Assembly: GCA_944385575.1 (NCBI GenBank)
Contig: CALWXT010000014.1
Location: 1 to 36,026 of the forward strand
Reading direction: 5' to 3'
DNA length: 36,026 nucleotides
Source: an uncultured Flavonifractor sp.
GTDB taxonomy: Bacteria; Bacillota; Clostridia; Oscillospirales; Oscillospiraceae
Numbering within the stretch: position 1 is the first letter of the stretch; each line of letters begins with the position of its first letter. A model generated the notes under the pieces. It was not told the origin of the DNA, searched no databases, and worked only from the letters and a program-made list of their open reading frames with translations. A program made the position numbers and the translations under genes. Of this stretch, positions 1-16,940 are shown piece by piece.

Positions 1-240
1 CGGCAGGACCTGTCCCCCTGGATGGCGACTCTGTATGTGAAGGACGAGTACCGCAACCTGCACATTGGCCAGCTGCTACAGCGGGCCAGCATCGAGGCGG
101 TGCGGGCCCTGAACCGGTACCCCTGTCTCTACCTCATCACCAAGCTGGACAACTACTACGAGAAGCTGGGCTGGCAGTTTGTGGAGAAGGCGCCCGAGGG
201 TGGCGGAGTGATGGAGAAGATCTACCGCTACGATTTCTGA
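1..240 (+). CDS. GNAT family N-acetyltransferase, C-terminal part (gene enters from the left edge)
   Basis: The reading frame is open from the first base of the window, so the gene starts outside it and the ATG at 22 is probably internal. The frame reads LSPWMATLYV, then EYRNLHIGQLL, which corresponds to beta4 and the acetyl-CoA-binding motif A (V-x-x-x-x-R-x-x-x-I-G-x-x-L) of the Gcn5-related acetyltransferase fold. A later Y-Y-E-K-L-G-W segment matches the usual end of the fold. About 79 residues are visible. The substrate cannot be told from this fragment. A strong hairpin follows directly and separates the gene from the convergent operon on its right. Fold assignment is good; specific function is unknown. 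Confidence 0.8.
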   Translation, partial: RQDLSPWMATLYVKDEYRNLHIGQLLQRASIEAVRALNRYPCLYLITKLDNYYEKLGWQFVEKAPEGGGVMEKIYRYDF

Positions 241-247
241 GCAAATA

Positions 248-288
248 AAAAGCACGGGGTACGGCGAGATGCCGTACCCCGTGTTTTT
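248..288. terminator. Bidirectional intrinsic terminator
   Basis: A perfect 13-bp stem, 253-265 with 271-283, has a 5-base loop. It is flanked by an A run on the left and TTTTT on the right, so it can stop transcription on both strands. It lies between the convergent GNAT gene and the zinc-ribbon operon. Confidence 0.9.
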
Positions 289-291
289 CTG

Positions 292-1554
292 TTACTCAAA
301 GATGGCCTTGGAGACGTCAATGGGATGGTCACACTGATTGTCGATGTCGGTGCCATTGCCGGAGAAGGTGCTGCCGTCGAAGTACATTACCAGGTCGGTG
401 GGCACGTTCATCAGCAGTACGGCGGTGCCGTTGCCGATGAAGGTATTGTCGAAGAAGCGGTCGTCGGTGGCGGACTGGCCGGTGCTGTTGTAGAACAGGC
501 CCACTTCGTTGTCGGCAAAGGTACACTCGGTGACGTTTACCCAGGCACCTCCCTGGGTCAGCAGGCCGTTTTTGTAGCCGGTGAAGGAGCAGCCGATGGC
601 CCACACCTTGGACAGGGCGGTGATGCCCGTGTTGGAGCCGTCTCCCACAAAGTCCATGTCATAGAAGTAGTTGATCCAGTAGTATCTGCCGGTCTCCAGC
701 ATGGTGAGGCTGCCCTTCAGGGTGGTGCGCTGGTCTCCTTCGGTGCTGCCGTGGAACTCAAAGGCGCGCTGCAGCTCCAGATCCCCCTCGTAGGTCACCG
801 GCGGCAGGTAGAGGATTACCTCGTCGAAGGGATTGACCTGGGCGGAGATGTCGTTCATCAGGCTTTGCAGCTCTTCCAGAGTATTCATGGGATAGTCCTG
901 CCAGTGGTACTCATGGGTGAGGATGAGGCTGATGTGGATGTTCTGCCGCACCCGGATCATATCCCCGTTCTTCATCTGAATCGTCCACACCACCTGGGGC
1001 TCCCCGGAATTGCCGGTGAAGTCCAGGGAGGACACCATGGCGGCGTCGGGGGAGTAGTCCTCCCGGTGGCTGGGCTCTCCGGCCACCAAGGGGTCAGCGG
1101 CGTTCTCGTCCTGCACCACCTCTACCGTGACCTGCTCGACCAGAGGCTCAAACTCCGGCCAGGCGTCCTGGCCGGTGGCGGCGTCGTTGACGTACCACCG
1201 GGAGGGCCAGCGGTACTGCTCGTCCGGCGCACCCTGCTGGTAGATGTCGGGGGCGGGGGCGCACCGGTCGTTGGGCCAGGCCACCAGCAGCTGGTAGGTC
1301 TTGTCCCCGGCCTCATAGTACACCTCGCCTACACCGTCGTATTCCCGGGGCACATAGGGACGGTTCAGGTGCCAGATCCCCACTCCGGCGGCGATCACCA
1401 CCGCCAGGGCCAGCAGGCCCAGCAGCAGCTTTTTCCGCAGCGGTACGGGATTTCCCGTGCCCTTCCGGGGATGGACGTCTTTGGCGCAGTGGGGACAGAA
1501 GGCGGCGTCTTCCGGCAGGTTCGCGCCGCAGTGGGGACAGAGCTGTTGGTGCAA
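292..1554 (-). CDS. Zinc-ribbon, single-TM protein with extracellular beta-helix-like domain (paralogue 1)
   Basis: The 420-residue product starts at a TTG with an AAGGAG ribosome site 7 bases upstream; no ATG fits. Residues 6-23 form a CPHC-x10-CPHC zinc ribbon. A short basic linker follows, then one hydrophobic helix at about 43-63, giving a predicted N-in, C-out topology. The large outer part has a middle domain (about 70-250, holding the conserved phrase QMKNGD). It ends in a repetitive region (about 255-420) with rung-like units such as CSFTGY and NTFIGNGTAV, which suggest a right-handed parallel beta-helix. It is the last gene of the operon led by the kinase-like gene and is homologous to two other members over its full length. 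The function is not known; sensing or display of a surface ligand is a guess. Confidence 0.8.
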   Translation of the reverse strand: MHQQLCPHCGANLPEDAAFCPHCAKDVHPRKGTGNPVPLRKKLLLGLLALAVVIAAGVGIWHLNRPYVPREYDGVGEVYYEAGDKTYQLLVAWPNDRCAPAPDIYQQGAPDEQYRWPSRWYVNDAATGQDAWPEFEPLVEQVTVEVVQDENAADPLVAGEPSHREDYSPDAAMVSSLDFTGNSGEPQVVWTIQMKNGDMIRVRQNIHISLILTHEYHWQDYPMNTLEELQSLMNDISAQVNPFDEVILYLPPVTYEGDLELQRAFEFHGSTEGDQRTTLKGSLTMLETGRYYWINYFYDMDFVGDGSNTGITALSKVWAIGCSFTGYKNGLLTQGGAWVNVTECTFADNEVGLFYNSTGQSATDDRFFDNTFIGNGTAVLLMNVPTDLVMYFDGSTFSGNGTDIDNQCDHPIDVSKAIFE

Positions 1555-1571
1555 GATAATCTCTCCTTATG

Positions 1572-2807
1572 TTAGTCCAGGGTGGCCTGGGACAGATCCG
1601 TTGGCTGGCTGCAGCGGTTGTCAATGCTCGTCCGGTTGCCCTGGAACACCGAGCCCTGGAAGTTGAGCTTCACGTCGGTAGGCACGTTGTCCAGCTGCAC
1701 GCCCACATCGTTGCCGATAAACTGGTTATCGTTGAACATGGAGTGGTTGGCGTACTCGCCGCTGCTGTCGAAGCGGAAGCCGATGCGGTTGTACTGGAAG
1801 GAGCAGCCGATGACGTTGGCCCAGCTGGTGCCGTAGGCAAATACCCCGGTGTCCCAGCCGGTGAAGGTGCAGTTGGTAGCCCGGAAGGAGGCGGAGCCGG
1901 ACAGACCGGTGCCGCTGCCGTCGCCCACAAAGTCCATGTCATAGAAATAGGTGATGGCGCCGTAATGGGTCAGAACCTGGACGGGGCCGGTGAAGGTGGT
2001 GCGGTTCCCGTCAGCGTCGGTGGAGCCGTACAGGTTCATACTCTGATCCTGGAGCATGATGCCATCCTCATAGGTGACGGGAGGCAGATGGAGATTGATG
2101 ATGGCCTCGTCGTTTCCAAACTGCGTGCCAATGCTGTCAATGAGGGCCTGCAGCTCCTCGGAGGTGTCCATGGGGTACTCCTCCGGGTAGTAGTCGTACA
2201 CCGGGATGGGGATGATCTCATAGGTCTGACGGAGATGGATGGTATCCCCGTTTTTCATTTGGAACGTCCACACCAGCTCCGCCGTGCCGCTCTCCCCGGT
2301 ATAGTCGATGAGGGAAATGAGAGGACACTCCGGTACGCCGGGATTGTAGGCGGGCTGGGAGCACACCATGGGGGAGGGGCTGTCCTCCTGGCCGATAAAA
2401 GCCGCCGATACCGTCTCCACTTCTTCCAGAAACGACTCAGAGGCGTCCTGGCCGTCCCTGCTGTTGACAAACAGCCTGGCGGGCTGCCGGTACTGGCCCT
2501 CCGGCTCTCCCTGAGCCGAGACCGTGGGGGAGGGAGTGAAGCGGTCGGCACCTTGGCTTAGCAGAACCTGATAGTCCCCGTAGCGAACCTCACCATAGCC
2601 GTCAAAGGTCTTTGGGGAAAAGGCCAGCCACAGTCCAGTCCCCAGGGCGATGACCACCGCCAGGATCAAAAGACCCAGCAGCACCTGTTTTCGCCGGGGA
2701 CTGGGAACTGCCGCCTCCTTCCGGGGACGGACAAACTTTGCGCAGTGGGGACAGAAAGAGGCGTTTTCAGGCAGATCCCCTCCGCACCATGGGCGCTTGT
2801 GTTCCAT
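1572..2807 (-). CDS. Zinc-ribbon-like, single-TM protein with beta-helix-like domain (paralogue 2, degenerate ribbon)
   Basis: The 411-residue product starts at an ATG with GGAGG 7 bases upstream; that ribosome site overlaps the stop of the preceding gene. It has the same plan as its neighbours: an N-terminal ribbon, a membrane helix at about 41-61, a middle domain with QMKNGD, and a C-terminal region of beta-helix-like rungs (CTFTGWDTGV, CSFQYNRIGF, NQFIGNDVGV). The first ribbon cysteine is missing: where paralogues have CPHC this one reads RPWC at residues 5-8. Only Cys8, Cys19 and Cys22 remain, so metal binding is doubtful. The linker and membrane helix are closest to paralogue 1, which suggests the two arose by tandem duplication. 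Function unknown. Confidence 0.8.
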   Translation of the reverse strand: MEHKRPWCGGDLPENASFCPHCAKFVRPRKEAAVPSPRRKQVLLGLLILAVVIALGTGLWLAFSPKTFDGYGEVRYGDYQVLLSQGADRFTPSPTVSAQGEPEGQYRQPARLFVNSRDGQDASESFLEEVETVSAAFIGQEDSPSPMVCSQPAYNPGVPECPLISLIDYTGESGTAELVWTFQMKNGDTIHLRQTYEIIPIPVYDYYPEEYPMDTSEELQALIDSIGTQFGNDEAIINLHLPPVTYEDGIMLQDQSMNLYGSTDADGNRTTFTGPVQVLTHYGAITYFYDMDFVGDGSGTGLSGSASFRATNCTFTGWDTGVFAYGTSWANVIGCSFQYNRIGFRFDSSGEYANHSMFNDNQFIGNDVGVQLDNVPTDVKLNFQGSVFQGNRTSIDNRCSQPTDLSQATLD

Positions 2808-2810
2808 CGG

Positions 2811-3734
2811 TTATCCTCCGTTCCCCTGATAATCCAGCATGGTGTAGCCCAGCAGGTTATAGTCCTTATCCAGCAGCAGATAGCACCGCCACCGGCCTTC
2901 CCGGGGCAGGAATTCCTCCAGCCGTTCGATCTCCCGGCACTGGCGCTCCGGCTCCGGGGAGTGGAGCAGAGCCCACAGGTGGTAGATCTGGGCGTCGTCC
3001 GCCCGGAGCACCGGGCCCTTTCCAGTGTCGTAGCCGCTCAAAAACCATACTGCTCCGGAACTTTCGATCTCCTCCGGCGGGATGTAGGTGGAAAAGTCCG
3101 CCTCCCAGTTGCCCTCAAAGGCGGCCAGCTGCTCCTCGTAGAGCTCCGTGAAGTCGTAGTCGCAGGATACCACGTCGATCTGCCATTTCCTCTCCTCGAT
3201 CTGGACGGGCTCCCCGATGAAGTAACCCATCAGGTGGGTGTTGCGGTCAAACATCAACAGGCATACCCGGGTGCCGGAGCTGCGGGCGTAGAACATGCCC
3301 CGCTCCTCGTCGGTGCCGTAGGCCCCACGGGAGGCCACCAGGTTAGCCAGCTGGAGGTTTTCCATCAGATAGTCGTCGATGTTGTCGCTGGTGGTGGAGG
3401 TGGTGGAGAAGTTGAGGCCGGCCAGCAGGGGGAAATACTCCCGCAGCAGGTCGGGGGTGACGGTAACCATACCGCTCTCGTCCTCCTCCAGGATCACCGC
3501 CGTGGTGTCTCCGGCGGGGAGACCGGCGGAGGGAGTTTCCCGCCCGAACCAGGCGTAAAGTCCTCCGGCCACAGCCAGGATCAGTACCAGCGCCAGCACC
3601 CATTTCAGCCCCTTCCGCCACAGGTGGGAGGGGATCTTTACCGGCTGGCGTTCCCGGATGCTTTGTGTACAGTGGGGGCAGAAGGAGGTGTCCTCAGGCA
3701 GAGGCGCGCCGCAATGAGGGCAGTTGTGTTCCAT
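2811..3734 (-). CDS. Zinc-ribbon, single-TM protein with a different extracellular domain (paralogue 3)
   Basis: An upstream in-frame ATG at 3752 overlaps the previous stop (ATGA) but has no ribosome site. The ATG at 3734 follows AAAGGG and gives MEHNCPHCG, matching paralogue 2, so it is preferred (307 residues). Cys5, Cys8, Cys19 and Cys22 form an intact zinc ribbon, and a hydrophobic helix spans about 44-62. The linker phrase PSHLWRK is shared with the upstream paralogue. From about residue 70 on it is unlike the other three: acidic, rich in W, Y and E, with no beta-helix-like rungs and no QMKNGD phrase. This looks like one anchor module fused to a different outer domain. The outer domain is not recognised. 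Confidence 0.78.
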   Translation of the reverse strand: MEHNCPHCGAPLPEDTSFCPHCTQSIRERQPVKIPSHLWRKGLKWVLALVLILAVAGGLYAWFGRETPSAGLPAGDTTAVILEEDESGMVTVTPDLLREYFPLLAGLNFSTTSTTSDNIDDYLMENLQLANLVASRGAYGTDEERGMFYARSSGTRVCLLMFDRNTHLMGYFIGEPVQIEERKWQIDVVSCDYDFTELYEEQLAAFEGNWEADFSTYIPPEEIESSGAVWFLSGYDTGKGPVLRADDAQIYHLWALLHSPEPERQCREIERLEEFLPREGRWRCYLLLDKDYNLLGYTMLDYQGNGG

Positions 3735-3748
3735 AGAGCTCGTCCCTT

Positions 3749-5008
3749 TCATTCAAAGGTAGCATAGGAGATGTTGACGGGGTGGTTGGCGGGGTTGGAG
3801 AGATCCGTGTTGTTGCCCGCAAACCGGCAGCCGTCGAAATAGAGGGTCTTGGCTCCCGGCACCCGGAGTAGCTCCACGGCGGTGCCGTTGCGGAGAAAGG
3901 CGTTGCCTTCAAAGCGGTTGGCGTTGACATAGCTGCCGCCGCTGTCGAAGCGGAAGCCCACGCTGTTGTCCTCGAAGAGGCAGCCTATCGGGTCAGCCCA
4001 GTCCTCCGCGCCGACCAGGAGGCCGGTGTCCCAGCCGGAGAAGCCGCAGTCCTCCACATGGCAGTCGGCCTCCACTGTGAGGCCCGTACCGGTGCCGCCG
4101 CCCCGGAAGTCGATGTACTCGATAAATCCCTGGGGGTCCTCCTCCGGCCTGTACACCACTGGGCCCAGGAAAGTGGTGCGCATGTTGTTCTCACCCAGGG
4201 AGCCGTAAAGGTTGATGGTGCGCTTGTCGATGGTAAGGCCCCCCTCATAGGCCACCGGGGGCAGATGGAGATGTACCACCGTGGGCAGGGGTACCTCCGC
4301 CTGGATCTGATCCACCAGAGCCTGAAGCTCTTCGATGGTATCCATGGGCCAGTCCTCCGGGTAGTAGTGGATGCTGTCCACCGGCTGGAAGTCCAGCTCC
4401 TGCCGCAGGAGGATGGTGTCCCCGTTTTTCATGTTGATATGCCATACAAGCTCCGCCGGGCCCTGGCTCTCTCCGGTGAAAGTGAGAACGGAGTGGAGCA
4501 GGCCCTCCGTGGCGGGATCGTTGGCGAACTCCGGCTGGAGCCAGGTGATGGGGGAAGGACTGTCCGACGGCTGGGTCATCTGAATGTAGGCAGAGTCGAT
4601 CTGCTGGTTGAACATCTGTCCCGCGTCCACCCCGGTGCTCACATGGGTGATAAACAGCTTGGCGTCCCGATCGTAGCGTCCGTCTGCCTCCACCTGAACG
4701 GTGTACTCTGGCTCCGGGGTGGGATCGTTGCGGAAGGTAACGGCCAGGTGGTAGTCGTTGCCGTCCAAAGTATAGGTCAGTTCGCCCCAGGCGTCATACA
4801 CATGGGGGGTAAAGTGGTGATACAGCCCCACCGCCAGCAAAATCAGCACCACCAGGATCACAGCGGGCTTCAGCCATTTGCGCCACAGGTGGGAAGGTAC
4901 CTTTACCGATTGCCGGGACCGGATGCTCTGGGCACAGAATGGACAAAAAGCGGCGTCCCCCGGCAGAGAGGCGCCGCAATATGGGCAGGGTTTGGTCTTG
5001 CCGGTCAC
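3749..5008 (-). CDS. Zinc-ribbon, single-TM protein with extracellular beta-helix-like domain (paralogue 4)
   Basis: The 419-residue product starts at GTG, one base after the kinase stop, with GGAGG 9 bases upstream inside the end of the kinase gene; translation is probably coupled. The ribbon is CPYC-x10-CPFC (residues 8-25), followed by the linker PSHLWRK and a helix at about 48-64. The outer part carries the middle domain (HINMKNGD is the variant here) and beta-helix-like rungs at the C-terminus (CGFSGWDTGL, CLFEDNSVGF, NAFLRNGTAV). It is the first of the four paralogues behind the kinase. The family is not one I can name. A zinc ribbon on the cytoplasmic side next to a kinase suggests the ribbon or its basic linker could be an interaction or phosphorylation site; this is inference. 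Confidence 0.8.
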   Translation of the reverse strand: MTGKTKPCPYCGASLPGDAAFCPFCAQSIRSRQSVKVPSHLWRKWLKPAVILVVLILLAVGLYHHFTPHVYDAWGELTYTLDGNDYHLAVTFRNDPTPEPEYTVQVEADGRYDRDAKLFITHVSTGVDAGQMFNQQIDSAYIQMTQPSDSPSPITWLQPEFANDPATEGLLHSVLTFTGESQGPAELVWHINMKNGDTILLRQELDFQPVDSIHYYPEDWPMDTIEELQALVDQIQAEVPLPTVVHLHLPPVAYEGGLTIDKRTINLYGSLGENNMRTTFLGPVVYRPEEDPQGFIEYIDFRGGGTGTGLTVEADCHVEDCGFSGWDTGLLVGAEDWADPIGCLFEDNSVGFRFDSGGSYVNANRFEGNAFLRNGTAVELLRVPGAKTLYFDGCRFAGNNTDLSNPANHPVNISYATFE

Positions 5009-5009
5009 G

Positions 5010-5684
5010 TTACAGGGCCTCCATCAGCCGCAGCACGTTTTTATAGCGGTGCTGGGGGTTGACGTGGGTGCACCGATCCACCACGCGGCCCATTTTCCCG
5101 TCGGCCAGCTTTTTGGAGGGATGCTCGCCGGTGAGCATCACATTGATGAGCACCCCCAGTGCGTAGATGTCGGTGCGGATGTCCGACTGGGACAGGCCGT
5201 ACTGCTCCGGCGCGGCGAAGCCGGTGGTGCCCAGGATCTGAGTGTCCATTTCGTGCTCAGGCTTATGTAACCGGGCGGCGTCAAAGTCAATGAGCACCGC
5301 CTCATCACCCCGCAGAATGATATTTTCCGGCTTTACGTCCCGGTGGACGGCCCCGATGGAGTGGAGCACCCACAGAGCCCGGCAGACCTGGAGCACGATC
5401 TTCCGGGTCTCGTCGGGGGAAAACAGTCCGCCCTTCAGTATGTATCCCAGGGTATCTCCCTGGATAAATTCCTCCAGCACCAGGTTCTGATCCCCCTGGC
5501 AGGCAACCTCAAACACGGTAGGCAAGTTGGGGCAGGTGTAATCCAGCAGCTTCTGGTAGACCTCCGGATTGCCGGTGAACTGCCGCAGAATGAACTGCCG
5601 TCCCGTGGTATTATGGCGAATCAGGCGCACGCTGCCTCGGGAACTTTCTTTGATGAGACGCACCTGCTCATATTCTTTCTGCAA
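5010..5684 (-). CDS. Eukaryotic-like Ser/Thr protein kinase-like protein, single domain, atypical N-lobe
   Basis: The C-lobe is clear: HRDVKPEN catalytic loop, an IDFD motif in place of DFG, GTTGFAAPEQYG activation-segment end, and SDIRTDIYALGVL helix F. The N-lobe is unusual. The glycine loop is reduced to SSRGSV, and the ATP-binding lysine of the VAIK motif appears to be arginine (FILRQF). There is no membrane helix and no PASTA or other sensor domain. No ATG fits the start. The TTG at 5813 lies in the promoter -35 box, so it is rejected. The TTG at 5684 begins just before the kinase fold and is used here. An ATT at 5708, 6 bases after a G6 tract, is an alternative. The gene heads the operon of four zinc-ribbon membrane proteins, which are its likely partners or substrates (inference). 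Activity is likely but unproven. Confidence 0.8.
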   Translation of the reverse strand: MQKEYEQVRLIKESSRGSVRLIRHNTTGRQFILRQFTGNPEVYQKLLDYTCPNLPTVFEVACQGDQNLVLEEFIQGDTLGYILKGGLFSPDETRKIVLQVCRALWVLHSIGAVHRDVKPENIILRGDEAVLIDFDAARLHKPEHEMDTQILGTTGFAAPEQYGLSQSDIRTDIYALGVLINVMLTGEHPSKKLADGKMGRVVDRCTHVNPQHRYKNVLRLMEAL

Positions 5685-5781
5685 GACATCGGAAAGCCAG
5701 GTATAAATAAAAATCCCCCCAAAAGCCTGTGCACTATGCAGTGGGCATATTGTATTGCGGCACAAAGTGTTGTAGATTAAG

Positions 5782-5813
5782 TATATAAAATTTAGAGAAA
5801 AAAGTAAAGTCAA
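5782..5813 (-). promoter_or_regulatory. Candidate promoter of the kinase/zinc-ribbon operon
   Basis: On the minus strand TTGACT (5813-5808) is followed after 18 bases by TTTATA, or after 20 by TATATA, in a strongly AT-rich stretch. It lies in the intergenic region shared with the divergent XRE-type gene. Confidence 0.5.
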
Positions 5814-5847
5814 GAAAGTGCAGGAAAAGAAAGGGGGATATGTTCCT

Positions 5848-6273
5848 GTGAAGGAAAAAACAACAGGCGACCTGAGCCAGGAACTGATGAATAAACCGGA
5901 TCTGGACTCCTATCTCAGGGAAAATCAGGAATACTTTTTTCATGAGGACATGACGGAGCTGCTGGCCGGTATTTTTGAAAAGAAGGGGATCTCCAAGGCG
6001 GCTCTGGCCCGGAAAGCGGGCATGAGCGAGGTGTATCTCCATCAGGTCTTTTCCGGACGGCGCAAGCCCTCCCGGGACAGATTGCTTTGTCTGTGCATCG
6101 GGCTGGAGGCGACGCTGGATGAGACACAGCAGCTGCTGAAGCAGGCGACCTACGCGCCCCTCCACCCCAAGGTGAAGCGGGACGCCATTGTCAGCTACGG
6201 AATCCTCCACAATGCGGAGCTGGGGCAGATCAACGACAAGCTGTTCGCAGAGAATGAAAAGACCCTGTTTTAG
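5848..6273 (+). CDS. XRE-type helix-turn-helix regulator
   Basis: GTG at 5848 is preferred because AAGGGGG lies about 10 bases upstream; an earlier in-frame GTG at 5818 has no such site. The product is about 141 residues. The central part (LLAGIFEKKGISKAALARKAGMS, split here as two helices, then YLHQVFSGRRKPSRDRLL) fits a Cro/C1-type DNA-binding domain. It is followed by a helix-rich tail containing YGILHNAELGQIND. The gene is divergent from the kinase operon, which makes it a candidate regulator of it. Its N-terminal 50 residues (D-L-S-Q-E-L...YFFHEDM) are acidic and may bind a partner. No metabolic ligand can be inferred. Confidence 0.8.
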   Translation: MKEKTTGDLSQELMNKPDLDSYLRENQEYFFHEDMTELLAGIFEKKGISKAALARKAGMSEVYLHQVFSGRRKPSRDRLLCLCIGLEATLDETQQLLKQATYAPLHPKVKRDAIVSYGILHNAELGQINDKLFAENEKTLF

Positions 6274-6280
6274 GGATAGG

Positions 6281-6314
6281 AACGGCCGGCGCATCCACGG
6301 ATGCGCCGGCCGTT
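6281..6314 (+). terminator. Hairpin after the XRE-type gene, probable terminator
   Basis: A 14-bp GC-rich stem, 6281-6294 with 6301-6314, has a 6-base loop and ends in only TTT. It lies 7 bases after the stop codon. The weak T tract lowers confidence. Confidence 0.6.
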
Positions 6315-6356
6315 TGTGTGACTATGAATAAATTATAAAAACTTTGGCCTAACCCC

Positions 6357-6385
6357 TAGGCAAATGTGGAAAACTATATTAAAAT
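6357..6385 (+). promoter_or_regulatory. Candidate promoter of the pyrH-polC operon
   Basis: TAGGCA (4 of 6 match to the -35 consensus), 17 bases, then TAAAAT (5 of 6). It lies 42 bases before the pyrH start, in the AT-rich gap after the preceding hairpin. Confidence 0.4.
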
Positions 6386-6427
6386 GAGGGGGACTGAAAT
6401 ACCATAACAGAAGAAGGGGTTGGAAGT

Positions 6428-7150
6428 ATGAGCAAACCGCAGTATAAGCGGGTGCTGTTGAAGCTCAGCGGCGAGGCTCTGGCTGGTGAAGCCAGCCGCG
6501 GGCTGGATTTTGACGTGATCGGAGACGTCTGCGACGTAATCAAGAAGTGCGTGGCCTGTGGTGTGCAGGTTGGCATCGTGGTGGGCGGCGGCAACTTCTG
6601 GCGCGGCCTGAAGGACGGCGGCGACCGGATGGAGCGCACCCGGGCCGACCACATGGGCATGCTGGCCACCACCATCAACGCCCTGGCCGTGGCTGATGTG
6701 CTGGAGCAGAAGGGTGTGGACGTGCGGGTGCAGACCGCCATCGAGATGCGTTCCATCGCCGAGCCCTATATCCGCTCCAAGGCTATCCGCCATATGGAGA
6801 AGGGGAGAGTGGTCATCTTCGGCTGCGGCACCGGCAACCCGTTCTTCTCCACCGATACCGCGGCGGTGCTGCGGGCGGCGGAGATCGACGCCGACGCTAT
6901 CCTGCTGGCCAAGAACATCGACGGTGTGTATTCCGCCGACCCGAAGAAAGACCCCAGCGCGGTCAAGTACGATACGATTACCTATGACGACGTGCTGGCC
7001 CAGCACCTGCAGGTGATGGACTCCACCGCCACGTCCCTGTCCATGGACAATAAGATCCCTGTGATCCTGTTTGCCCTGAAAGACCCGGAGAATATCCTGC
7101 GGGTGGTCATGGGCGAAAAAATTGGAACCATCGTCAAGGAGGAACCGTGA
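6428..7150 (+). CDS. pyrH: UMP kinase
   Basis: Bacterial UMP kinase phosphorylates UMP to UDP with ATP in pyrimidine nucleotide synthesis; it is a cytosolic hexamer of the amino-acid-kinase fold. The 240-residue length is normal. The N-terminal [12 protein letters not shown] is the phosphate-binding start, [12 protein letters not shown] is the glycine-rich loop, and [13 protein letters not shown] with [14 protein letters not shown] are family signatures. The ATG follows GAAGGGG. The stop overlaps the ribosome site of frr. It is the first gene of a rightward operon running to polC; pyrH-frr-uppS-cdsA-dxr-rseP is a widely conserved order. Confidence 0.97.
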
Positions 7151-7151
7151 A

Positions 7152-7706
7152 ATGAAGGAAGTCAACAAGGAATTCGACGCGAAAATGCAGAAAACCATTG
7201 ATGTCGTCATGAGCGATTTCGCCAGCGTCCGGGCGGGCCGGGCCAACGCCGCCGTGCTGGATAAGATCACGGTGGACTATTACGGCGCGCCCACCCCCCT
7301 GAACCAGGTGGCCGCCATCTCCTCTCCCGACCCCCGCTCCCTGATGATCCAGCCCTGGGACGGCACCCTGCTCAAGGCCATTGAGAAGGCCATCCAGTGT
7401 TCCGACCTGGGCATCAATCCTCAGAACGACGGCCGGGTGATCCGCCTGTCCTTCCCCCAGCTCACCGAGGAGCGCCGCAAGGAGCTGACCAAGCAGGTGC
7501 GCAAGTACGGCGAGAACGGCAAGGTGGCCATCCGCAACATCCGCCGGGACGCCATGGAGAAGTTCAAGGCCATGGAGAAGAAGTCTGAGATCACCGAGGA
7601 CGACCGGAAGGACTACGAGAAGGAGCTTCAGGACATCACCGAGAAGCGCTGCAAGCAGATCGACGAGCTCACCGCAAAGAAAGAGACTGAACTGATGGCG
7701 GTGTAA
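7152..7706 (+). CDS. frr: Ribosome recycling factor
   Basis: RRF works with EF-G to split post-termination ribosomes. The 184-residue product has the usual length. It contains the RAGRANAAVLDKITVDYYG segment and the PWDGTLLKAIEKAI segment of domain II, and the basic VRKYGENGKVAIRNIRRDA helix. The ATG at 7152 has AAGGAGG 9-10 bases upstream, inside the end of pyrH; an upstream in-frame start at 7122 would overlap pyrH further and is not needed. It is co-transcribed with pyrH. Confidence 0.97.
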   Translation: MKEVNKEFDAKMQKTIDVVMSDFASVRAGRANAAVLDKITVDYYGAPTPLNQVAAISSPDPRSLMIQPWDGTLLKAIEKAIQCSDLGINPQNDGRVIRLSFPQLTEERRKELTKQVRKYGENGKVAIRNIRRDAMEKFKAMEKKSEITEDDRKDYEKELQDITEKRCKQIDELTAKKETELMAV

Positions 7707-7726
7707 GCCAATCAACCATCATGATA

Positions 7727-7758
7727 CGGTGCGGGGCGCCCCAAGGTGTCCCGCACCG
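7727..7758 (+). other. Strong hairpin between frr and uppS without a T tract
   Basis: A 14-bp stem (7727-7740 with 7745-7758, two G-U pairs on the RNA) has a CCAA loop in the 92-base gap between two operon genes. There is no following T run, so it is unlikely to be a full terminator. It could be an mRNA processing or stability element, or a protein site. Confidence 0.5.
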
Positions 7759-7798
7759 GCATCTTAACTAGGAACGAGGATCGGATAGGAAACGAGCT

Positions 7799-8545
7799 AT
7801 GGCTTTTTTGAAACCAAAGGAGGACACGGCGGCGCAGGTGGATTTTGACCATCTGCCCCGGCACGTGGCCATTATTATGGACGGCAACGGCCGGTGGGCC
7901 AAGCGCCGGGGCCTGCCCCGGACGGCGGGCCACGCCGCCGGCGCGGAGAATTTCCGCACCATTGCCACGTATTGTCAGAAGATCGGGCTGGACTACCTGA
8001 CGGTGTACGCCTTCTCCACGGAGAACTGGAAGCGGCCGCTGGAGGAAGTGTCCGCCATCATGGGCCTGCTGAAGAAGTACCTGATAGAGTCCATTGAGAA
8101 AATGGAGCGGGATAAGATCAGACTCCACTTTTTCGGCGATCTTTCGCCCCTGCCTCAGGAGCTGCGTGAGATGTGCGACCGGACGGACGCCATTTCTAAG
8201 CGGTATGAGGGCATGCAGGTCAACGTATGCCTCAACTACGGCGGCCGGGACGAGATCGTGCGGGCGGCCCGTGCCTTTGCCGCCGACTGCGCGGCGGGGA
8301 AGAAGACGCCGGAGGAGCTGACGGAGGATGCCTTTTCCGGTTATCTCTACTCTGCCGGCGTACCCGACCCGGATCTGGTGATCCGGCCCAGCGGGGAGAT
8401 CCGGATCTCCAACTTCCTTCTGTGGCAGTCGGCCTACGCGGAATTTTATTACACCGATGTGCTGTGGCCTGACTTTTCCAAGGAAGAACTGCACAAGGCG
8501 CTGGCGGCCTATCAGGGTCGTTCCCGCCGTTTTGGAGGTGTCTGA
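7799..8545 (+). CDS. uppS: Undecaprenyl diphosphate synthase (cis-prenyltransferase)
   Basis: This enzyme adds isopentenyl units to farnesyl diphosphate to make the C55 carrier used for peptidoglycan. The 248-residue product has the expected length. HVAIIMDGNGRWAKRRG is the signature with the catalytic Asp and the phosphate-binding Asn-Gly-Arg. YAFSTENWKRP and the C-terminal IRPSGEIRISNFLLWQ, then YTDVLWPDF, are the other conserved blocks. The third block is more often RTSGE, so the IRPSGE variant is common but not universal. The ATG follows AGGAAAC. The stop abuts the GTG of cdsA. Confidence 0.96.
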   Translation: MAFLKPKEDTAAQVDFDHLPRHVAIIMDGNGRWAKRRGLPRTAGHAAGAENFRTIATYCQKIGLDYLTVYAFSTENWKRPLEEVSAIMGLLKKYLIESIEKMERDKIRLHFFGDLSPLPQELREMCDRTDAISKRYEGMQVNVCLNYGGRDEIVRAARAFAADCAAGKKTPEELTEDAFSGYLYSAGVPDPDLVIRPSGEIRISNFLLWQSAYAEFYYTDVLWPDFSKEELHKALAAYQGRSRRFGGV

Positions 8546-9370
8546 GTGGGTAAGCGAGTCATGGTGGCGGTGATTTTTATTCCGCTGCTGCTGGCGGCCA
8601 TCTATTGGGCCTCTCCGGCTTATCCGGTGGTGCTGCCCATCATCATTGCGGGCCTGTCCATGATCGCGGTGCACGAGGCACTCTGGTCCACCGGGTTTTT
8701 GAAGCACTCCCGCATTTCCGGTTATTCCATTGTGATCGCCGGGCTGATCCCCTTCTGGGTGTATTACAGCGGAAAGCCCATGCCGATGCTGTGCGGACTG
8801 TTTCTCTACGTGCTGCTCCTGTTCTGCGAGGCGATCGCCAGCCATAAGCGGGTGGGCCTGGAGAAGATGGGCGGGGCCTTTTTTCTGGCCGTGGTCATCC
8901 CATTTTTCCTGTCCTCCTTCCTGCGCCTGCGGCTGATGGAGCAGTGGCGGGCCCTGGTGATCCTGCCCCTGGTCATCGCCTTTGTCAGCGACGCCTTCGC
9001 CCTGTTTGCCGGCATGGCCTTCGGCAAGCACAAGCTGGCCCCGAAGCTCTCCCCCAAGAAGACGGTGGAGGGGGCTGTGGGCGGCTTCCTGGGCGCCGTG
9101 GTGTGCACGGTGCTCTACGGCCTGGTGCTGCACCTGGTGTTCCATTATGAGGTGAATTATCTGCTGCTGGCCCTGTACGGGGCCCTGGGCAGCGTGGTGT
9201 CCCAGCTGGGAGACCTGTCGTTTTCCTATATCAAGCGGGAGTATGGGCTGAAGGATTTCGGCAATATTTTCCCCGGCCACGGCGGCGTACTGGATCGGTT
9301 TGACAGCGTGATCTTCTGTGCGCCCCTGACCGAGCTGATGATCCATTTCCTGCCCGCTGTGGGGGGTTGA
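8546..9370 (+). CDS. cdsA: Phosphatidate cytidylyltransferase (CDP-diglyceride synthase)
   Basis: CdsA is an integral membrane enzyme that makes CDP-diacylglycerol from phosphatidic acid and CTP, the branch point of phospholipid synthesis. The 274-residue product has about eight hydrophobic segments. It ends with the family signature: [14 protein letters not shown], then [12 protein letters not shown], with the metal-binding aspartates. The [13 protein letters not shown] block is also typical. It starts with GTG immediately after the uppS stop, with GGAGG about 8 bases upstream, so translation is probably coupled. Confidence 0.96.
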
Positions 9371-9372
9371 CT

Positions 9373-10515
9373 ATGAGTAAGTGTATATCTTTATTGGGCT
9401 CCACAGGGTCGATCGGGCGGCAGTCACTGGATGTGATTGCCGCCTGTGGCATGACTGTGGCTGCCCTTACCGCCAACCGGGATGTGGAGCGGATGGAAGA
9501 ACAGTGCCGTCAGTTCCGCCCGGAGCTGGCGGTGATGATGGACCCCGCCGCTGCTGCCGACCTGCGCGTGCGGCTGGCCGATACCGGCATCCGGGTGGGG
9601 TCAGGGATGGACGGCCTCATTGAGGCGGCCAGCCTGGAGCAGGCGGACACGGTGCTCACCGCTGTGGTGGGTATGGTGGGCCTGCGTCCCACCCTGGCGG
9701 CCATCCGTCAGGGTAAGCGCATCGCCCTGGCCAACAAGGAGACCCTGGTGTGCGCCGGGGAACTGGTGATGGAGGCTGCTGACACCTATGGCGCGGAGAT
9801 CGTGCCGGTGGATTCCGAGCACTCCGCTATCTTCCAGTGCCTTCAGGGCAGCCGGGACAGGGGAGAGGTACGCCGCCTGATCCTCACCGCCTCCGGCGGC
9901 CCCTTCTGGGGCTGGGAGAAGGAAAAGGTGGCCTCCGCCACGGTGGAGCAGGCCCTGAAGCATCCCAACTGGTCCATGGGGGCCAAGATCACCGTGGACT
10001 CCGCCAGCCTGATGAACAAGGGCCTGGAATTTATTGAGGCCATGCGGCTCTACCGCCTGCCGCCGGAGAAAATTTCCATTGTGATCCACCGGGAGAGTAT
10101 TGTACACTCCCTGGTGGAATACTGTGATAATGCCATCCTGGCCCAGCTGGGGGTACCCGACATGCGTCTGCCCATCCAGTACGCGCTCACCTGGCCCGCA
10201 CGGACAGAGGCGGTGGCAAAGCCTCTGGACCTGCTGACCTGTCCGCCCCTGACCTTCCACGCGCCGGACTATGACACGTTCCCCTGCCTCTCCCTGGCCC
10301 TGGGTGCCGCCCGTACCGGCGGAACTGCCACGGCGGCCCTGAATGGCGCCAACGAGGCGGCGGTGGGTCTGTTCCTGGCAGGGAAGATCTCCTTTGGGGA
10401 GATTGCTCAGAGGGTGGAACACGCGCTGGCTTCGGTGCCTGTGGTGCAGAAGCCCGATCTGGAGGCCGTGCTGGCCGCCGATGCCGCCGCGCGGGCGGCA
10501 GTGGAAACCCACTAA
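9373..10515 (+). CDS. dxr: 1-deoxy-D-xylulose 5-phosphate reductoisomerase
   Basis: Dxr converts DXP to 2-C-methylerythritol 4-phosphate with NADPH, the first committed step of the MEP pathway. The 380-residue product shows the GSTGSIGRQSLDVI dinucleotide-binding loop, ALANKETLV, the metal-binding PVDSEHSAIFQCL, SLMNKGLEFIEA and GVPDMRLPIQYAL. The ATG at 9373 follows a G-rich site and overlaps the end of cdsA's ribosome context; an upstream TTG at 9367 is less likely. Its presence beside uppS and ispG groups isoprenoid genes in one operon. Confidence 0.97.
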   Translation: MSKCISLLGSTGSIGRQSLDVIAACGMTVAALTANRDVERMEEQCRQFRPELAVMMDPAAAADLRVRLADTGIRVGSGMDGLIEAASLEQADTVLTAVVGMVGLRPTLAAIRQGKRIALANKETLVCAGELVMEAADTYGAEIVPVDSEHSAIFQCLQGSRDRGEVRRLILTASGGPFWGWEKEKVASATVEQALKHPNWSMGAKITVDSASLMNKGLEFIEAMRLYRLPPEKISIVIHRESIVHSLVEYCDNAILAQLGVPDMRLPIQYALTWPARTEAVAKPLDLLTCPPLTFHAPDYDTFPCLSLALGAARTGGTATAALNGANEAAVGLFLAGKISFGEIAQRVEHALASVPVVQKPDLEAVLAADAAARAAVETH

Positions 10516-10529
10516 TTTATGAGGTGCCT

Positions 10530-11606
10530 ATGAACGTCTTTTCCATCGTGCTCATCATCCTGTTTTTCGGCTTTCTCATCGCCATCCACGAGCTGGGGCA
10601 TTTTATTGCGGCCAAAGCCCTGGGGGTACGGGTAAATGAATTTGCCATCGGCATGGGCCCCGCCCTCATTTCCCGGGAAAAAGGGGAGACCCTCTATTCT
10701 CTCCGTGCCTTTCCCATCGGCGGCTTCTGTGCCATGGAAGGGGAGGAGGAGAGCTCCGACGATCCCCGCTCCTTCCACAACAAGCCCTTTTGGAAAAAGT
10801 TCATCATCCTGGTAGCCGGCGCTTTTATGAACTTTGTGGCCGGCCTGGCCATCATCCTGGTGATCTTCTTCCTGGTGGGCAGCCCCGCCGCCCCGGTGTT
10901 CACCGGTGTGATGGAGGGTGCGGAGGCCGTGCTGGACACCGGCCTGCAGCCCGGCGACCAGTTTTACACCATTGACGGCCACCGCATCTACTTCCAGAGC
11001 GACGCGATGATCTACCTCCAGCGGGCGGGAGAGGATGTGGACGTAACGGTGCTCCGGGACGGGGAGAAGGTGGATCTGGGCACCATTTCCCTGCCTTACC
11101 GCCAGCTCACCGATGAGAGCGGGGCACAGGTGGAGAAGCGCGGCATCTATGTGGGCCAGTATTTTGAAGATACCATCTTCACCCGCTTACAGAACAGCTG
11201 GTACCAGGCCATCGACTATGTGCGCATGGTGTGGATGGGCCTGGGCGATATCGTTACCGGCACGATGGGCCTGCGGGATATGTCGGGCGTCATTGGCATC
11301 GTGGCCATGGCCGGCGACGTGGGTGAAGCAGGCGCGGCGGCAGCGGGCCTGTTCGGCGCGGTGGTCAACATCCTGGACTTTACCGCCCTCATCGCCATCA
11401 ACCTGGCGGTGATGAACCTGCTGCCCATCCCCGCCCTGGATGGCGGGCAGATCTTCCTGCTCATCGTGGATGGGATCTACCGCCTGTTCAGCAAAAAGCA
11501 TATCGACCAAAAATATCTGGGCTATGTCAATATGGTGGGCTTTATCTGCCTGATGGCCCTGATGGTGCTGGTGGCCATCAATGACGTGAGCAAATTCATT
11601 TTGTAG
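10530..11606 (+). CDS. rseP: RseP-family site-2 zinc metalloprotease
   Basis: Intramembrane protease of the S2P family; in Gram-positives relatives cut anti-sigma factors and signal-peptide remnants. The 358-residue product has the zinc motif HELGH in the first membrane helix, a PDZ-like region in the middle (around [13 protein letters not shown]), and the third-ligand motif [11 protein letters not shown] near the C-terminus. The ATG at 10530 with GAGG upstream is preferred over a GTG at 10524. It lies 14 bases after dxr, in the common dxr-rseP-ispG order. Substrates cannot be inferred here. Confidence 0.95.
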
Positions 11607-11620
11607 GAGGCGTATCCGAA

Positions 11621-12658
11621 ATGACCAGACAGATTTTGGTGGGAGGCGTCCCTGTCGGCGGGGGCGCCCCCGTCACCATACAGTCCATGACCAATACCCG
11701 TACCGACGACGTGGCGGCCACTGTGGAGCAGATCAAGCGGCTGGAGACCGCCGGCTGCCAGATCATCCGGGTGGCGGTGCCCGATCAGGCCGCCGCCAAG
11801 GCGGTGGGCGCCATCCGGGAGCGCATCCATATCCCCCTGGTGGTGGATATCCACTTCGACTACAAGCTGGCCCTCACCTGCATTGACGCCGGCTGCGACG
11901 CAGTGCGCATCAATCCGGGCAACATCGGCGGGGAGGACCGGGTGAAAGCGGTGGCGGAAGCCTGTAAAGCAAAAGGACTTCCCATCCGTATCGGGGTCAA
12001 CGGCGGCTCCCTGGAGAAGCCTCTGCTGGCCAAATACGGCGGCGTGACCCCGGAAGCCCTGGTGGAGTCGGCCTTTGGCCACATTGCCCTGCTGGAAAAG
12101 TACGACTTTCACGATATCTGCGTGTCCCTCAAATCCTCTCATGTGCCGGTGACCATGGCGGCCTATAAGCTCATGAGTGCGAAAAGTGATTATCCTTTAC
12201 ATCTGGGCGTGACTGAGACGGGCACCATCCGCATGGGCACCCTGAAATCCGCCATCGGCATCGGGGGCCTGCTGGCCCTGGGTATCGGCGATACCATGCG
12301 GGTCTCCCTGTCTGCCGACCCGGTGGAGGAGGTGCTGGCGGCCAAGGACATCCTGAAAGCCGCCGGCCTGCGGAAGGACGGGCCCGACCTGGTGTCCTGC
12401 CCCACCTGCGGCCGCACCCGCATCGACCTGATCGGTCTGGCCAGCGAGGTGGAGGAGCGGCTCAAGACCGTGGACAAGCCCATTACCGTGGCGGTGATGG
12501 GCTGCGTGGTCAACGGCCCCGGCGAGGCCTCCGCCGCCGATGTGGGCATTGCCGGCGGCAACGGAGAGGGCCTGCTGTTCCGCAAGGGGGAGATCGTGAA
12601 AAAGGTGCCCCAGGAGCAGCTGGTGGACGAGCTGTTTGCGCTGATCGAGCAGTTGTGA
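11621..12658 (+). CDS. ispG: 4-hydroxy-3-methylbut-2-en-1-yl diphosphate synthase (IspG/GcpE)
   Basis: IspG is a [4Fe-4S] enzyme that reduces MEcPP to HMBPP, the penultimate MEP-pathway step. The 345-residue product has the TIM-barrel start [15 protein letters not shown] and the cluster-binding cysteines in [12 protein letters not shown] and [10 protein letters not shown]. The length fits the short bacterial form without the insert found in plants. The ATG follows TAGGAGG. With dxr it gives two of the MEP genes in this operon. Confidence 0.97.
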
Positions 12659-12677
12659 TACAGGAGCGATTCAAACT

Positions 12678-15600
12678 ATGCCGCAAGCACAGAAGATCCC
12701 ATTTTTAAAACTGTTTTCCGCCTGGAAGCCGGGTGAGGAGCTGGCCGCGCTGGTGTCCGGCTATCTGGTGACCCGGGCGGTGATCGACAAGAATACCCGC
12801 TCCATCAAGGCCAGCGTGGAGTGTGAAGCCCCTCCGGACGAGGGGCTGCGCCGCACCATCGAGCGCAGCCTGGCCCTCACCTACCGGGTGGAGCAGGTGG
12901 CGCTGGAGGTGGCGGCCTCCGCCGGAGAAGAAAAACCTGCTCCTGCGCCCATTCCCGTGCCGGAACCCACGCCCGCACCCGTGCAGGCCCCTCCCGTGGA
13001 GGATGAGGCGGCGGCGGCTTTCCGCCGGACAGAGGAGATCCGCCGCAAGGCTCTGGCCAGCCTCAAGACCCCAAAGCCTACGGAAAAGAAGGGAAGCAAA
13101 GGCTCCGCCCCCAAGGGCAAGATGATCTACGGCAAGCATGAGGTGCGCAGGACGCCCACTCCCATGCGGGAGCTGGAGCTGGACATGGGCACGGTGATTG
13201 TGGAGGGCGACGTGTTTGCCCTGGACCACCGGGAGCTGAAGAAGCGGGGGGCCTGGGTGGTGTCCTTTGACGTCACCGACTATACCGGGTCCGTGCGCAT
13301 CAACAAGTTCTTCCCCGGGGACGAGGGCAAGGGCATCGTGGATGGGGTGAAGAAGGGGCAGCGTCTGCTCATCCAGGGCAAGCTGAACATCGACCGCTTC
13401 ACCGGCGACATGGTGCTGGAGCCCTACGCCATCATGGAGGCCAGCCGCACCGAGCGTGTGGACGACGCCCCCGAGAAGCGGGTGGAGCTCCACTTACATA
13501 CCAACATGTCCGCCATGGACGCCCTTACCGCCGTGGGCTCCAAGATGGATTCCCCCATCGGCACCGACAAGAACGTGGTCAAGCGGGCGGAGCGGTGGGG
13601 CCACCGGGCCATCGCCATCACCGACCACGGCGTGGCCCATTCCTTTCCCAACGCCTGGCACTCCGCCAAGAAGATCAAGATTCTCTACGGGGTGGAGGCC
13701 TACTTCATCAACGACGTGGACGACCGGGTGGCCGTCCACGGGGAGAAGGAGCAGGACCTGAGCGGCGACATCGTCTGCTTCGACATTGAGACCACCGGCC
13801 TGGATAACCGCCGGGACGTGATCACCGAGATCGGCGCCGTGGTGCTGCGCAATGGGGAAGTGGTGGAGCAGTTCTCCACCTTTGCCGACCCGGAACGGCC
13901 CCTGACCCGGGAGATCACCGAGCTCACCGGCATCACTGACCAGATGCTGGAGGGGGCCCCCTCCCAGGCGGAGGCCATCAATGCCTTTCTGGATTTCGTG
14001 GGGGACCGGCCCCTGGCCGCCCACAATGCTGAGTTCGACATCGGCTTCATCGCCGCCGGCTGCCGCAAGATGGGCCGGCCCTTTGAGAATACCTACATCG
14101 ACAGCCTGATCCTGGCCCAGAACCTGCTGCCTGATCTGGGCAAATATAAGCTGAATATCGTGGCGGAGCACCTGAACCTGCCCGCCTTCAATCACCACCG
14201 GGCCTACGACGACGCGGCCACGGTGGGCTATATGCTGGTGCCCTTTTTCGACATGCTGCGGGACAAGGGCGTGCACACCCTCCAGCAGATCAATCCCGCC
14301 ATGCGCAAGCTGCGTTCCGGCGGCAAGGCCAAGCGGCACCCCAAGCACCTGATCGTGCTGGCCAAGAACCAGCTGGGCCTGCGCAACCTGTACAAGCTGA
14401 TCTCCGCCTCCTACCTGGACCACTTCAAGCGCTATCCCATCATGCCCAAGAGCCTGATCGACCAGAACCGGGAGGGGCTCATTATCGGCTCGGCCTGTGA
14501 GGCCGGAGAGCTGTTCCAGGCCATCGTCAAGCGAAAGGACTTTAAGGAGCTCAAGCGCATCGCCTCCTGGTACGATTTTCTGGAGATCCAGCCCCTGTGC
14601 AACAATGCCTTTATGCTGCGCAAGGGCATGGTACACAGCGAGGAGGAGCTGCGGGATTTCAACCGTACCGTGGTGGCCCTGGGTGAGGAGCTGGACAAGC
14701 CGGTGTGCGCCACCGGCGACGTCCACTTCCTGGACCCGGAGGACGAGATCTACCGCCACATCCTGCTGGCCTCCAAGGGCTTTGAGGACGCCGACTCGCC
14801 CCTGCCGCTCTACTTCAAGACCACCCAGGAGATGCTGGACGAGTTTGCCTATCTGGGCAAGGATAAGGCCTATGAGGTGGTGGTGCGCAACACCAACCTG
14901 GTGGCCGACTGGTGCGAGGACGTGGTACCTCTGCCCCAGGGACTGTTCGCCCCCAAGATCGAGAACTCCGCCGAGGAGCTGACGCGGCTGGTGTGGGACA
15001 AGGCCCATGCCCTCTATGGCGAGGAGCCGCCCCAGATCGTGGTGGACCGCATCAACGCGGAGCTGGGCGATATTATTAAATGTAAGTACGACGTGATTTA
15101 CATGTCCGCCCAGAAACTGGTGCAGGACTCCCTGGATCACGGCTATCTGGTTGGCTCCCGTGGCTCGGTGGGCTCCTCCCTGGTGGCCTTCATGTCGGGC
15201 ATCACCGAGGTAAACTCCCTGCCGCCCCACTACCGCTGCCCCAAGTGCAAGCACTCCGACTTTGAGGCGGCCAAGGAGCTGGGCATCGGCTGCGGCGCCG
15301 ACATGCCAGATGCGGTCTGTCCTATCTGCGGCACGCCCTACGACAAGGATGGCTTCAACATCCCCTTCGAGACCTTCCTGGGCTTCGGCGGCGACAAGGT
15401 GCCCGATATCGACCTGAACTTCTCCGGTGAGTACCAGTCCAACGCCCACAGGTACACCTTCGAGCTGTTCGGCCAGACCCACGTGTTCCGGGCGGGCACC
15501 ATCGGCACCGTGAAGGACAAGATCGCCTTCGGCTACGTGAAGCATTACCTGGACGACCACGGCCTCCACGGTACCCGGGCGGAGGAAAACCGCCTGTCTC

Positions 15601-16838: not shown

Positions 16839-16847
16839 CTGTCCGGA

Positions 16848-16874
16848 GGGCGGCCTGCGGGCCGCCCTTTTTTT
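16848..16874 (+). terminator. Intrinsic terminator of the pyrH-polC operon
   Basis: An 8-bp GC stem (GGGCGGCC, 16848-16855, with 16860-16867), a TGCG loop and seven Ts. It begins 9 bases after the polC stop. Confidence 0.92.
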
Positions 16875-16875
16875 C

Positions 16876-16904
16876 TTGACAAAAGCTGGCTGTTATAGTA
16901 TAGT
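16876..16904 (+). promoter_or_regulatory. Promoter of the histidine operon
   Basis: A perfect -35 box TTGACA (16876-16881), 17-base spacer and TATAGT (16899-16904). It lies directly behind the polC terminator. The leader to the hisZ start is only about 30 bases, which leaves no room for a T-box or attenuator. Confidence 0.88.
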
Positions 16905-16940
16905 AGCGTGGTAAAGTGTGAAAGCAAAGGGGGAACTCCC

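Follow-up and report, generated by a model that had tools for sequence, protein, structure and literature searches.

A soluble Arg-type kinase, tandem zinc-ribbon membrane proteins and a divergent XRE regulator as a candidate three-part signalling system in a Flavonifractor contig

The window analysed here, 36,026 nucleotides of contig CALWXT010000014.1 from an uncultured Flavonifractor sp. (assembly GCA_944385575.1), contains five minus-strand genes, in which a soluble Hanks-type Ser/Thr kinase (P0001) is followed by four zinc-ribbon membrane proteins, here called A to D, and, diverging from them, the gene for an XRE-type regulator. A first-pass annotation, made by a model from the letters alone, had described a kinase-led operon of this kind, and its gene order and spacing are confirmed: the kinase (5010–5708) precedes A (P0002, 3749–5008), B (P0003, 2811–3734), C (P0004, 1572–2807) and D (P0005, 292–1554), with gaps of 1 base between the kinase stop and A, 14 between A and B, 3 between B and C and 17 between C and D. 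An intrinsic-terminator-like stem of 13 pairs, 10 of them GC, lies at the 3' end of the operon (253–283, minus strand). The regulator (P0006, 5848–6273, plus strand) has a conserved GTG start at 5848 within a longer frame that opens at 5818. The layout is more than chance, as it recurs in related genomes.

Protein A consists of a zinc ribbon, a basic linker, one membrane helix, a beta domain and a beta-helix-like domain. B has a ribbon, linker and helix of A's kind under a different outer domain, and the two proteins share 35 of 62 residues across the ribbon-to-helix segment as against 43 of 222 elsewhere. C, with a beta-helix outer domain, and D, which begins at a TTG and has a beta-helix-like one, resemble A along nearly the whole chain (42% and 37% identity, respectively); the outer domain is homologous among A, C and D and unrelated in B. 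Pfam Zn_Ribbon_1 was matched by all four proteins (E of 7e-5 for A, 6.3e-6 for B, 0.0038 for C and 2.7e-7 for D), B and D passing the curated cut-off. The ribbon of C (KRPWC; 2807–2740, minus strand) lacks the first of the four zinc-ligand Cys residues, and C may bind zinc unlike its three paralogues.

The first-pass annotation had also read three of the outer domains as beta-helices, which holds in part. A, C and D are indeed homologous there, and C just passes the Pfam Beta_helix cut-off (E 5.8e-6, 26.4 bits vs 25.9); D falls below it (E 0.005, 16.9 bits) and no Beta_helix match is listed for A. An AlphaFold2 model of A, obtained with four input sequences, had a mean predicted local distance difference test (pLDDT) score of 82, with a helix at 41–66, a beta domain at about 70–215 and repeated short strands at 244–397. 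Foldseek returned a single match at E ≤ 0.001, not a beta-helix, and a weak one to a pectin methylesterase (8tne_C, E 0.012, TMq 0.25). The beta-helix reading is consequently drawn from Pfam, homology and the strand pattern, not from a fold match, and glycan sensing by the outer domains, drawn in turn from the beta-helix, is a guess.

The kinase matches Pfam Pkinase (E 4.6e-27), and its best-scoring solved relatives include PknB and StkP; no hydrophobic helix was found in the P0001 chain. Its beta3 Lys is replaced by Arg (R48) and its DFG motif reads DFD. Among 52 soluble or ribbon-type kinases, a set chosen by architecture with six loci added by hand, the beta3 residue was Arg in 49 and His in 3, while it was Lys in 30 of 41 other kinases. 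The HRD Asp, the catalytic Asn and the DFG Asp were each kept in 52/52, with the HRD Arg and the following Lys each differing in one; the second Asp of DFD was found in 42/52 and the Tyr of DYD in 0/52, DYD occurring in 3 helix-bearing relatives. Kinases with Arg or His at beta3 had Asp or Asn as the third DFG residue in 53 of 56 cases, those with Lys in 18 of 30. In the stretch 8–24 residues past beta3, Glu reached at most 16% in any column (n = 52, sequence only), and its frequency was 71% at +7 and 81% at +25, positions that fall outside the usual distance from beta3 to the C-helix Glu. In a FastTree of 93 kinases, read for topology only, the ribbon-type members grouped together. With the catalytic residues kept, phosphotransfer is the predicted activity, favoured over a pure scaffold.

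The start of the kinase gene is probably an ATT at 5708, inside a frame that runs from 5813 to 5010 and from which P0001 was read from 5726. GGGGGG stands six bases 5' of this codon, and ATG occupies the aligned place in L055, L056, L058, L060, L062 and L067. Among 41 relatives, ATT was read at the kinase start in 14 (one of them, L081, mis-anchored), and 6 had no anchor. As a separate observation, two XRE-linked membrane kinases (L190 and L193) showed Thr or Ile at the aligned beta3 position and a Lys one residue earlier, probably an alignment shift.

The co-occurrence of the parts was surveyed in 250 genomes of the family (ribbon-protein match at E ≤ 1e-8, close kinase at E ≤ 1e-79). A ribbon-protein match was present in 36 genomes, of which 35 also had a close kinase; the exception, G242, showed a weak match within a 1333-residue frame. 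Of 40 stretches fetched by kinase or ribbon, 39 held the kinase. A zinc-ribbon/helix gene adjoined it in 36 of these 39 loci, tandem ribbon genes numbering up to five, and in the remaining three we found no ribbon gene (L059), a relative of the ribbon proteins with no ribbon in its frame (L063) and a kinase-helix-tail fusion (L079). Such a survey had been set beforehand as the test that could overturn the first-pass annotation, and the outcome, ribbon homologues mostly with a kinase neighbour, upheld its picture of a kinase and sensor-like parts that are separate proteins yet kept together. An XRE gene matching P0006, on the opposite strand and at most 144 bp from the kinase frame, was found in 39/39 kinase loci; as the stretches had been chosen by kinase or ribbon, it is this figure for the regulator that carries information. 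A kinase-profile scan of the genome contigs gave at least 80 loci, of which L082, L083, L084 and L089 entered the locus analysis and 76 were left out.

Searching by the regulator instead gave matches, partial ones counted, in 28/245 genomes of the order, 31/196 of the class and 9/149 of the phylum. In the class and phylum loci, a kinase lay within 1.7 kb of 17 of the 20 full-length regulators (>100 bits) and of 0/20 partial ones. Two of the three full-length misses share a single short locus with a ribbon gene at its end, and the third stands beside a weak kinase match. Four architectures were seen among the partner kinases. Some are soluble and accompanied by separate ribbon proteins, some carry a tail in addition to one helix, some have three helices, and at L208 (3320–4867), next to a divergent XRE gene, a single 515-residue frame joins kinase, zinc ribbon and membrane helix. 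XRE regulators of the same kind adjoin, elsewhere, kinases with their own membrane helix. The first-pass annotation had suggested that ribbon and linker might dock on the kinase, and this is made likelier by the L208 fusion and by the shared N-terminus under unrelated outer domains.

P0006 matches HTH_31 (E 5.5e-8, 33.4 bits vs a cut-off of 27) and HTH_3 (E 7.1e-7, 29.6 vs 23). The N-terminal segment, which contains a conserved Thr (Thr6 counted from 5848, T16 in P0006), was found in 96 kinase-adjacent and 10 other members, a set that is biased in that many loci were fetched by kinase; Thr occupied the aligned position in 103 of the 103 members with a residue there. Among partial XRE matches lacking this segment, 1/22 was kinase-adjacent. 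The AlphaFold2 model of the regulator had a mean pLDDT of 89, and 71 across the first ten residues, with a helix starting at the conserved Thr; matches from a fold search with this model were weak or generic. We do not claim Thr6 as an established phosphosite, since it lies at the helix start in the model.

Between regulator and kinase, the motif CAATATGC-N5-GCATA was found in 33 of 41 regions, the window included, and extends as G[T/G]G in 23; the eight regions without it are L048, L057, L059, L066, L067, L069, L080 and L081. In the window this operator occupies 5752–5732 on the minus strand (CAATATGCCCACTGCATAGTG), within the presumed kinase leader, and takes the form CAATATGC-N5-GCATAGTG. 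Read towards the regulator it becomes CACTATGC-N5-GCATATTG, whose TTG opens the -35-like TTGTAT of the regulator promoter (5750–5755), with a -10-like TAGATT (5773–5778, plus strand, 4/6 matches) 17 bp further on. Interlocked with this promoter is a kinase-operon promoter-like element, TTTACT-17-TATACT (5780–5808, minus strand), picked out by a consensus scan that gave 4 matches in positions 1–7000 vs 2.0 expected in shuffles, so that it is weak by itself. The regulator is predicted, with support from comparison, to bind TATGC-N5-GCATA sites. Judged by where the operator lies, bound regulator would activate its own promoter and act as a roadblock to transcription of the kinase operon. A second inverted repeat near the presumed kinase transcription start, GTACAA-N4-TTGTAC in L045 and weaker in other intergenic regions, is a possible further regulator site.

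Sites elsewhere were sought with two patterns. The first, allowing up to 2 mismatches, brought out sites away from the locus in genomes of the genus; it matched in 13 of the 20 genomes searched, the kinase locus included, and its reversed control matched in 1/13 genus genomes and 5/7 more distant ones. The second, written after the first matches had been seen, gave 27 exact matches in 21 of the 250 family genomes, with 0 for the reversed control. Of the 41 genomes with the system, 10 had exact sites outside the kinase locus, as did 1 of the 209 without it, "having the system" meaning a kinase match at E ≤ 1e-55 (41/250 genomes), a cut-off set afterwards; in one of the ten, G237, the site precedes a second regulator gene. 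Given the late choice of this pattern and cut-off, and a -10 background taken from the kept regions themselves, p-values serve as description only; controls of a cleaner kind are the reversed pattern and the 209 genomes lacking the system.

We kept 22 sites outside the locus; kinase–regulator locus sites were excluded, and L262, L263 and L264, which repeat L287, L305 and L306, were counted once. A -10 with at least 5/6 matches lay at 16–18 bp in 17 of the 22 and at exactly 17 bp in 14, the local background, drawn from the same 22 regions, being 1.2%. A gene with a hydrophobic N-terminus followed 19 of the 22 sites vs 42 of 286 in a rough background of mechanically chosen long frames; the other three were L292 and L298 (a signal-peptide-like start with a frame break) and L295 (a second regulator copy). 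Five sites were dropped after examination: L279 and L281, which fall within a coding frame; L269 and L278, which fall within open frames; and L293, an exact match in genome G225, which lacks the system. If these five are restored as failures, the counts become 17/27 for the -10 and 19/27 for the hydrophobic N-terminus. First-pattern matches in G251, G252, G256, G182, G810, G812 (C63), G817 (C50) and G814 (C56) stand outside the regulon count.

The site-linked genes encode S-layer-homology (SLH) proteins, lipoproteins and other exported proteins, and most sites overlap a -35. In the 17 targets scanned, Pfam matches included SLH, Big_2, RCC1, InlB-type repeats, WG repeats and GH26-like and copper-amine-oxidase-N-like domains; for six targets Pfam gave nothing at E ≤ 0.001, and for one only CHASE3 below its cut-off. 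In the window's own genome, sites at C17 (L273) and C74 (L274) precede genes with RCC1 and InlB-type repeats and with SLH and WG repeats, respectively. In L298 (minus strand) and L292 (plus strand) the frame breaks just past the signal peptide, in L298 near an A run; either an assembly error or phase variation would account for this. Three elements that the first-pass annotation did not cover, namely the operator, the regulator divergent from the kinase and the candidate regulon, give the system an output.

Taken together, these data suggest a three-part transmembrane system, in essence a receptor Ser/Thr kinase whose parts are separate proteins and which has its own transcription factor, an interpretation to which we give an even chance of being right. 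Proteins A to D would sit in the membrane with their outer domains outside and the zinc ribbon inside, several sensors sharing one kinase through the conserved ribbon and linker. A ligand or surface change might then alter the recruitment or activity of the kinase, in which Arg and the second Asp of DFD may replace the usual Lys–Glu pair. The kinase would phosphorylate the XRE regulator, perhaps at the conserved N-terminal Thr; this is the weakest step. The regulator would bind TATGC-N5-GCATA at its own promoter and at the genes for exported surface proteins, in both cases at a site overlapping the -35, the arrangement of an activator. For the kinase promoter, the site lies downstream of the presumed start, and binding there could damp kinase and sensors and form a feedback switch, the geometry being seen and the sign inferred. 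Comparative data tie regulator, operator and exported genes to one another, the regulator to the kinase and the kinase to the ribbon proteins; how a signal would flow between the parts is our inference. More tentatively, and with somewhat less than even confidence, we propose that this is a new signalling class, with interchangeable ribbon sensors, an active soluble Arg-type kinase that phosphorylates an XRE activator and interlocked promoters that make a lambda-like switch over a surface-protein regulon, the single-chain XRE-linked membrane kinases of other Clostridia being the unsplit form.

Several observations weigh against this interpretation. Replacement of the beta3 Lys by Arg usually kills kinases. 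The conserved Thr is also kept in 8/8 regulators (residue present) for which no kinase was found nearby, and, standing at the predicted helix start, it may equally well be structural. One locus (L059) has a kinase without a ribbon gene, and another (L061) a ribbon protein with no kinase within the fetched stretch. Foldseek with the model of A found no convincing solved relative. As for the regulon, 31 of the 41 system-bearing genomes have no exact site outside the locus; the five dropped sites have neither a -10 of 5/6 nor a hydrophobic N-terminus downstream; the 22 sites include orthologues, so the independent cases are fewer, and were chosen partly after matches had been seen; and the window's genome has only two kept sites, each 2 mismatches from the first pattern.

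Nearly the same facts would be explained by a pseudokinase scaffold, the main rival to an active kinase, although we consider it rather unlikely. In that case the protein would bind nucleotide without phosphorylating, hold the XRE regulator at the membrane via the ribbon proteins and release it on a signal, much as an anti-activator does. The Lys-to-Arg change indeed leaves open the possibility that the kinase does not phosphorylate: beta3 is Arg or His in 52/52, no conserved Glu is found at the usual distance past it, and in the DYD family, which is similar, roughly 60% of members are described as pseudokinases (PMC12599244). However, a pure scaffold would need none of the HRD Asp, catalytic-loop Asn and DFG Asp that all 52 keep, and related Lys-bearing kinases adjoin the same kind of regulator.

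We think it distinctly improbable that the ribbon proteins are outputs, with another signal driving kinase and regulator and the beta-helix envelope proteins being made or modified in response. Such an arrangement would suit the position of the ribbon genes, in the operon beside the operator, the exported products of most other site-linked genes, and the altered stress or lysozyme sensitivity described in Lactococcus upon deletion of Llmg_0524 or its Cys motif (PMC4628341). On the other hand, ribbon and linker are constant under unrelated outer domains, and the L208 fusion, like the regulator-linked kinases with their own helix, places the membrane part on the input side. An anti-phage defence kinase locus is very improbable. 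In its favour, a comparison with PADLOC models matched PD-T4-6 (E 2.2e-30) and Stk2 (2.4e-18) to the kinase and, weakly, HTH_VI (1.4e-4) and capH (0.0094) to the regulator. It was rejected as the main reading, as the kinase matches listed are confined to the general kinase domain of P0001, none of proteins A to D matched a PADLOC model below E 0.04 and the linked sites point to surface proteins.

The first-pass annotation knew of no described system with this layout; this stands uncontradicted, since we found no description of it in the literature searched (open-licence papers). The kinase itself, however, is of a type similar to the DYD kinases already described. In a 2025 review, DYD kinases and pseudokinases of actinobacteria and firmicutes are described as membrane-associated; Arg stands in for the Lys, the C-helix Glu is missing, and a salt bridge linking this Arg to the second Asp is modelled. 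The review also asks for the functions of these proteins to be worked out (PMC12599244). The window kinase shares with that description the beta3 Arg, the lack of the usual C-helix Glu, the second Asp, the catalytic-loop Asn and a firmicute host; it differs in having DFD and no membrane helix, the membrane part being a separate protein. Likened in this way, by description and motifs, it is DYD-like, not a proven member. The words "helix-turn-helix" and "zinc" have 0 occurrences in the review text of PMC12599244.

PASTA kinases (PrkC, PknB, StkP) are, as described, similar in their Hanks-type kinase domain and in extracytoplasmic sensing, but the window kinase has no membrane helix, PASTA domain or beta3 Lys, and its sensor is a separate protein. 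A PASTA-type kinase was ruled out, as NF033483 matches the kinase domain only (99.6 vs 450 bits). PknH of Mycobacterium tuberculosis is a single-chain membrane kinase. It offers a parallel in being a Ser/Thr kinase encoded with its transcription factor: PknH and EmbR form one operon, and EmbR, a regulator of envelope genes, is reported to be phosphorylated in vitro (PMC9239209, PMC6213207). EmbR, however, is described as OmpR/SARP-type with an FHA domain, whereas the window regulator is XRE; moreover, the 2022 PknH–EmbR paper did not detect EmbR phosphorylation in the cell during normal growth, so that even this parallel is debated. As to the ribbon proteins, TcaA (NCBIfam NF053815) and Llmg_0524/0526, two zinc-motif membrane proteins of one Lactococcus operon (PMC4628341), likewise have a CX2C zinc motif in a membrane protein. 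The abstract of PMC4628341, in contrast with the present locus, mentions no linked kinase or XRE regulator, and the TcaA model gave 11.4 bits for P0003 and 9.9 for P0005 vs a cut-off of 550.

The usual view of bacterial Ser/Thr kinases is of receptors made of one chain, with targets that are many and loose. The kinase described here has a regulator dedicated to it, an operator that can be read and a candidate regulon, and its putative sensors are separate, modular proteins. A little-studied type of kinase or pseudokinase thereby gains a testable role, and the control of surface proteins in gut-type anaerobes would become predictable from sequence. Because it occurs in nature with the remaining catalytic residues intact, the replacement of Lys by Arg provides a direct test of the need for that lysine.

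Two features of the surroundings may be added. Loci L055, L056 and L172 each carry two copies of the XRE regulator, one of them between ribbon genes on the opposite strand. In the window, the plus strand 3' of the regulator (6428–20016) holds housekeeping genes, namely those for an amino-acid-kinase family protein, a CTP transferase, DXP reductoisomerase, an M50 protease, GcpE, DNA polymerase III alpha, a histidyl-tRNA-synthetase family protein and histidinol dehydrogenase.

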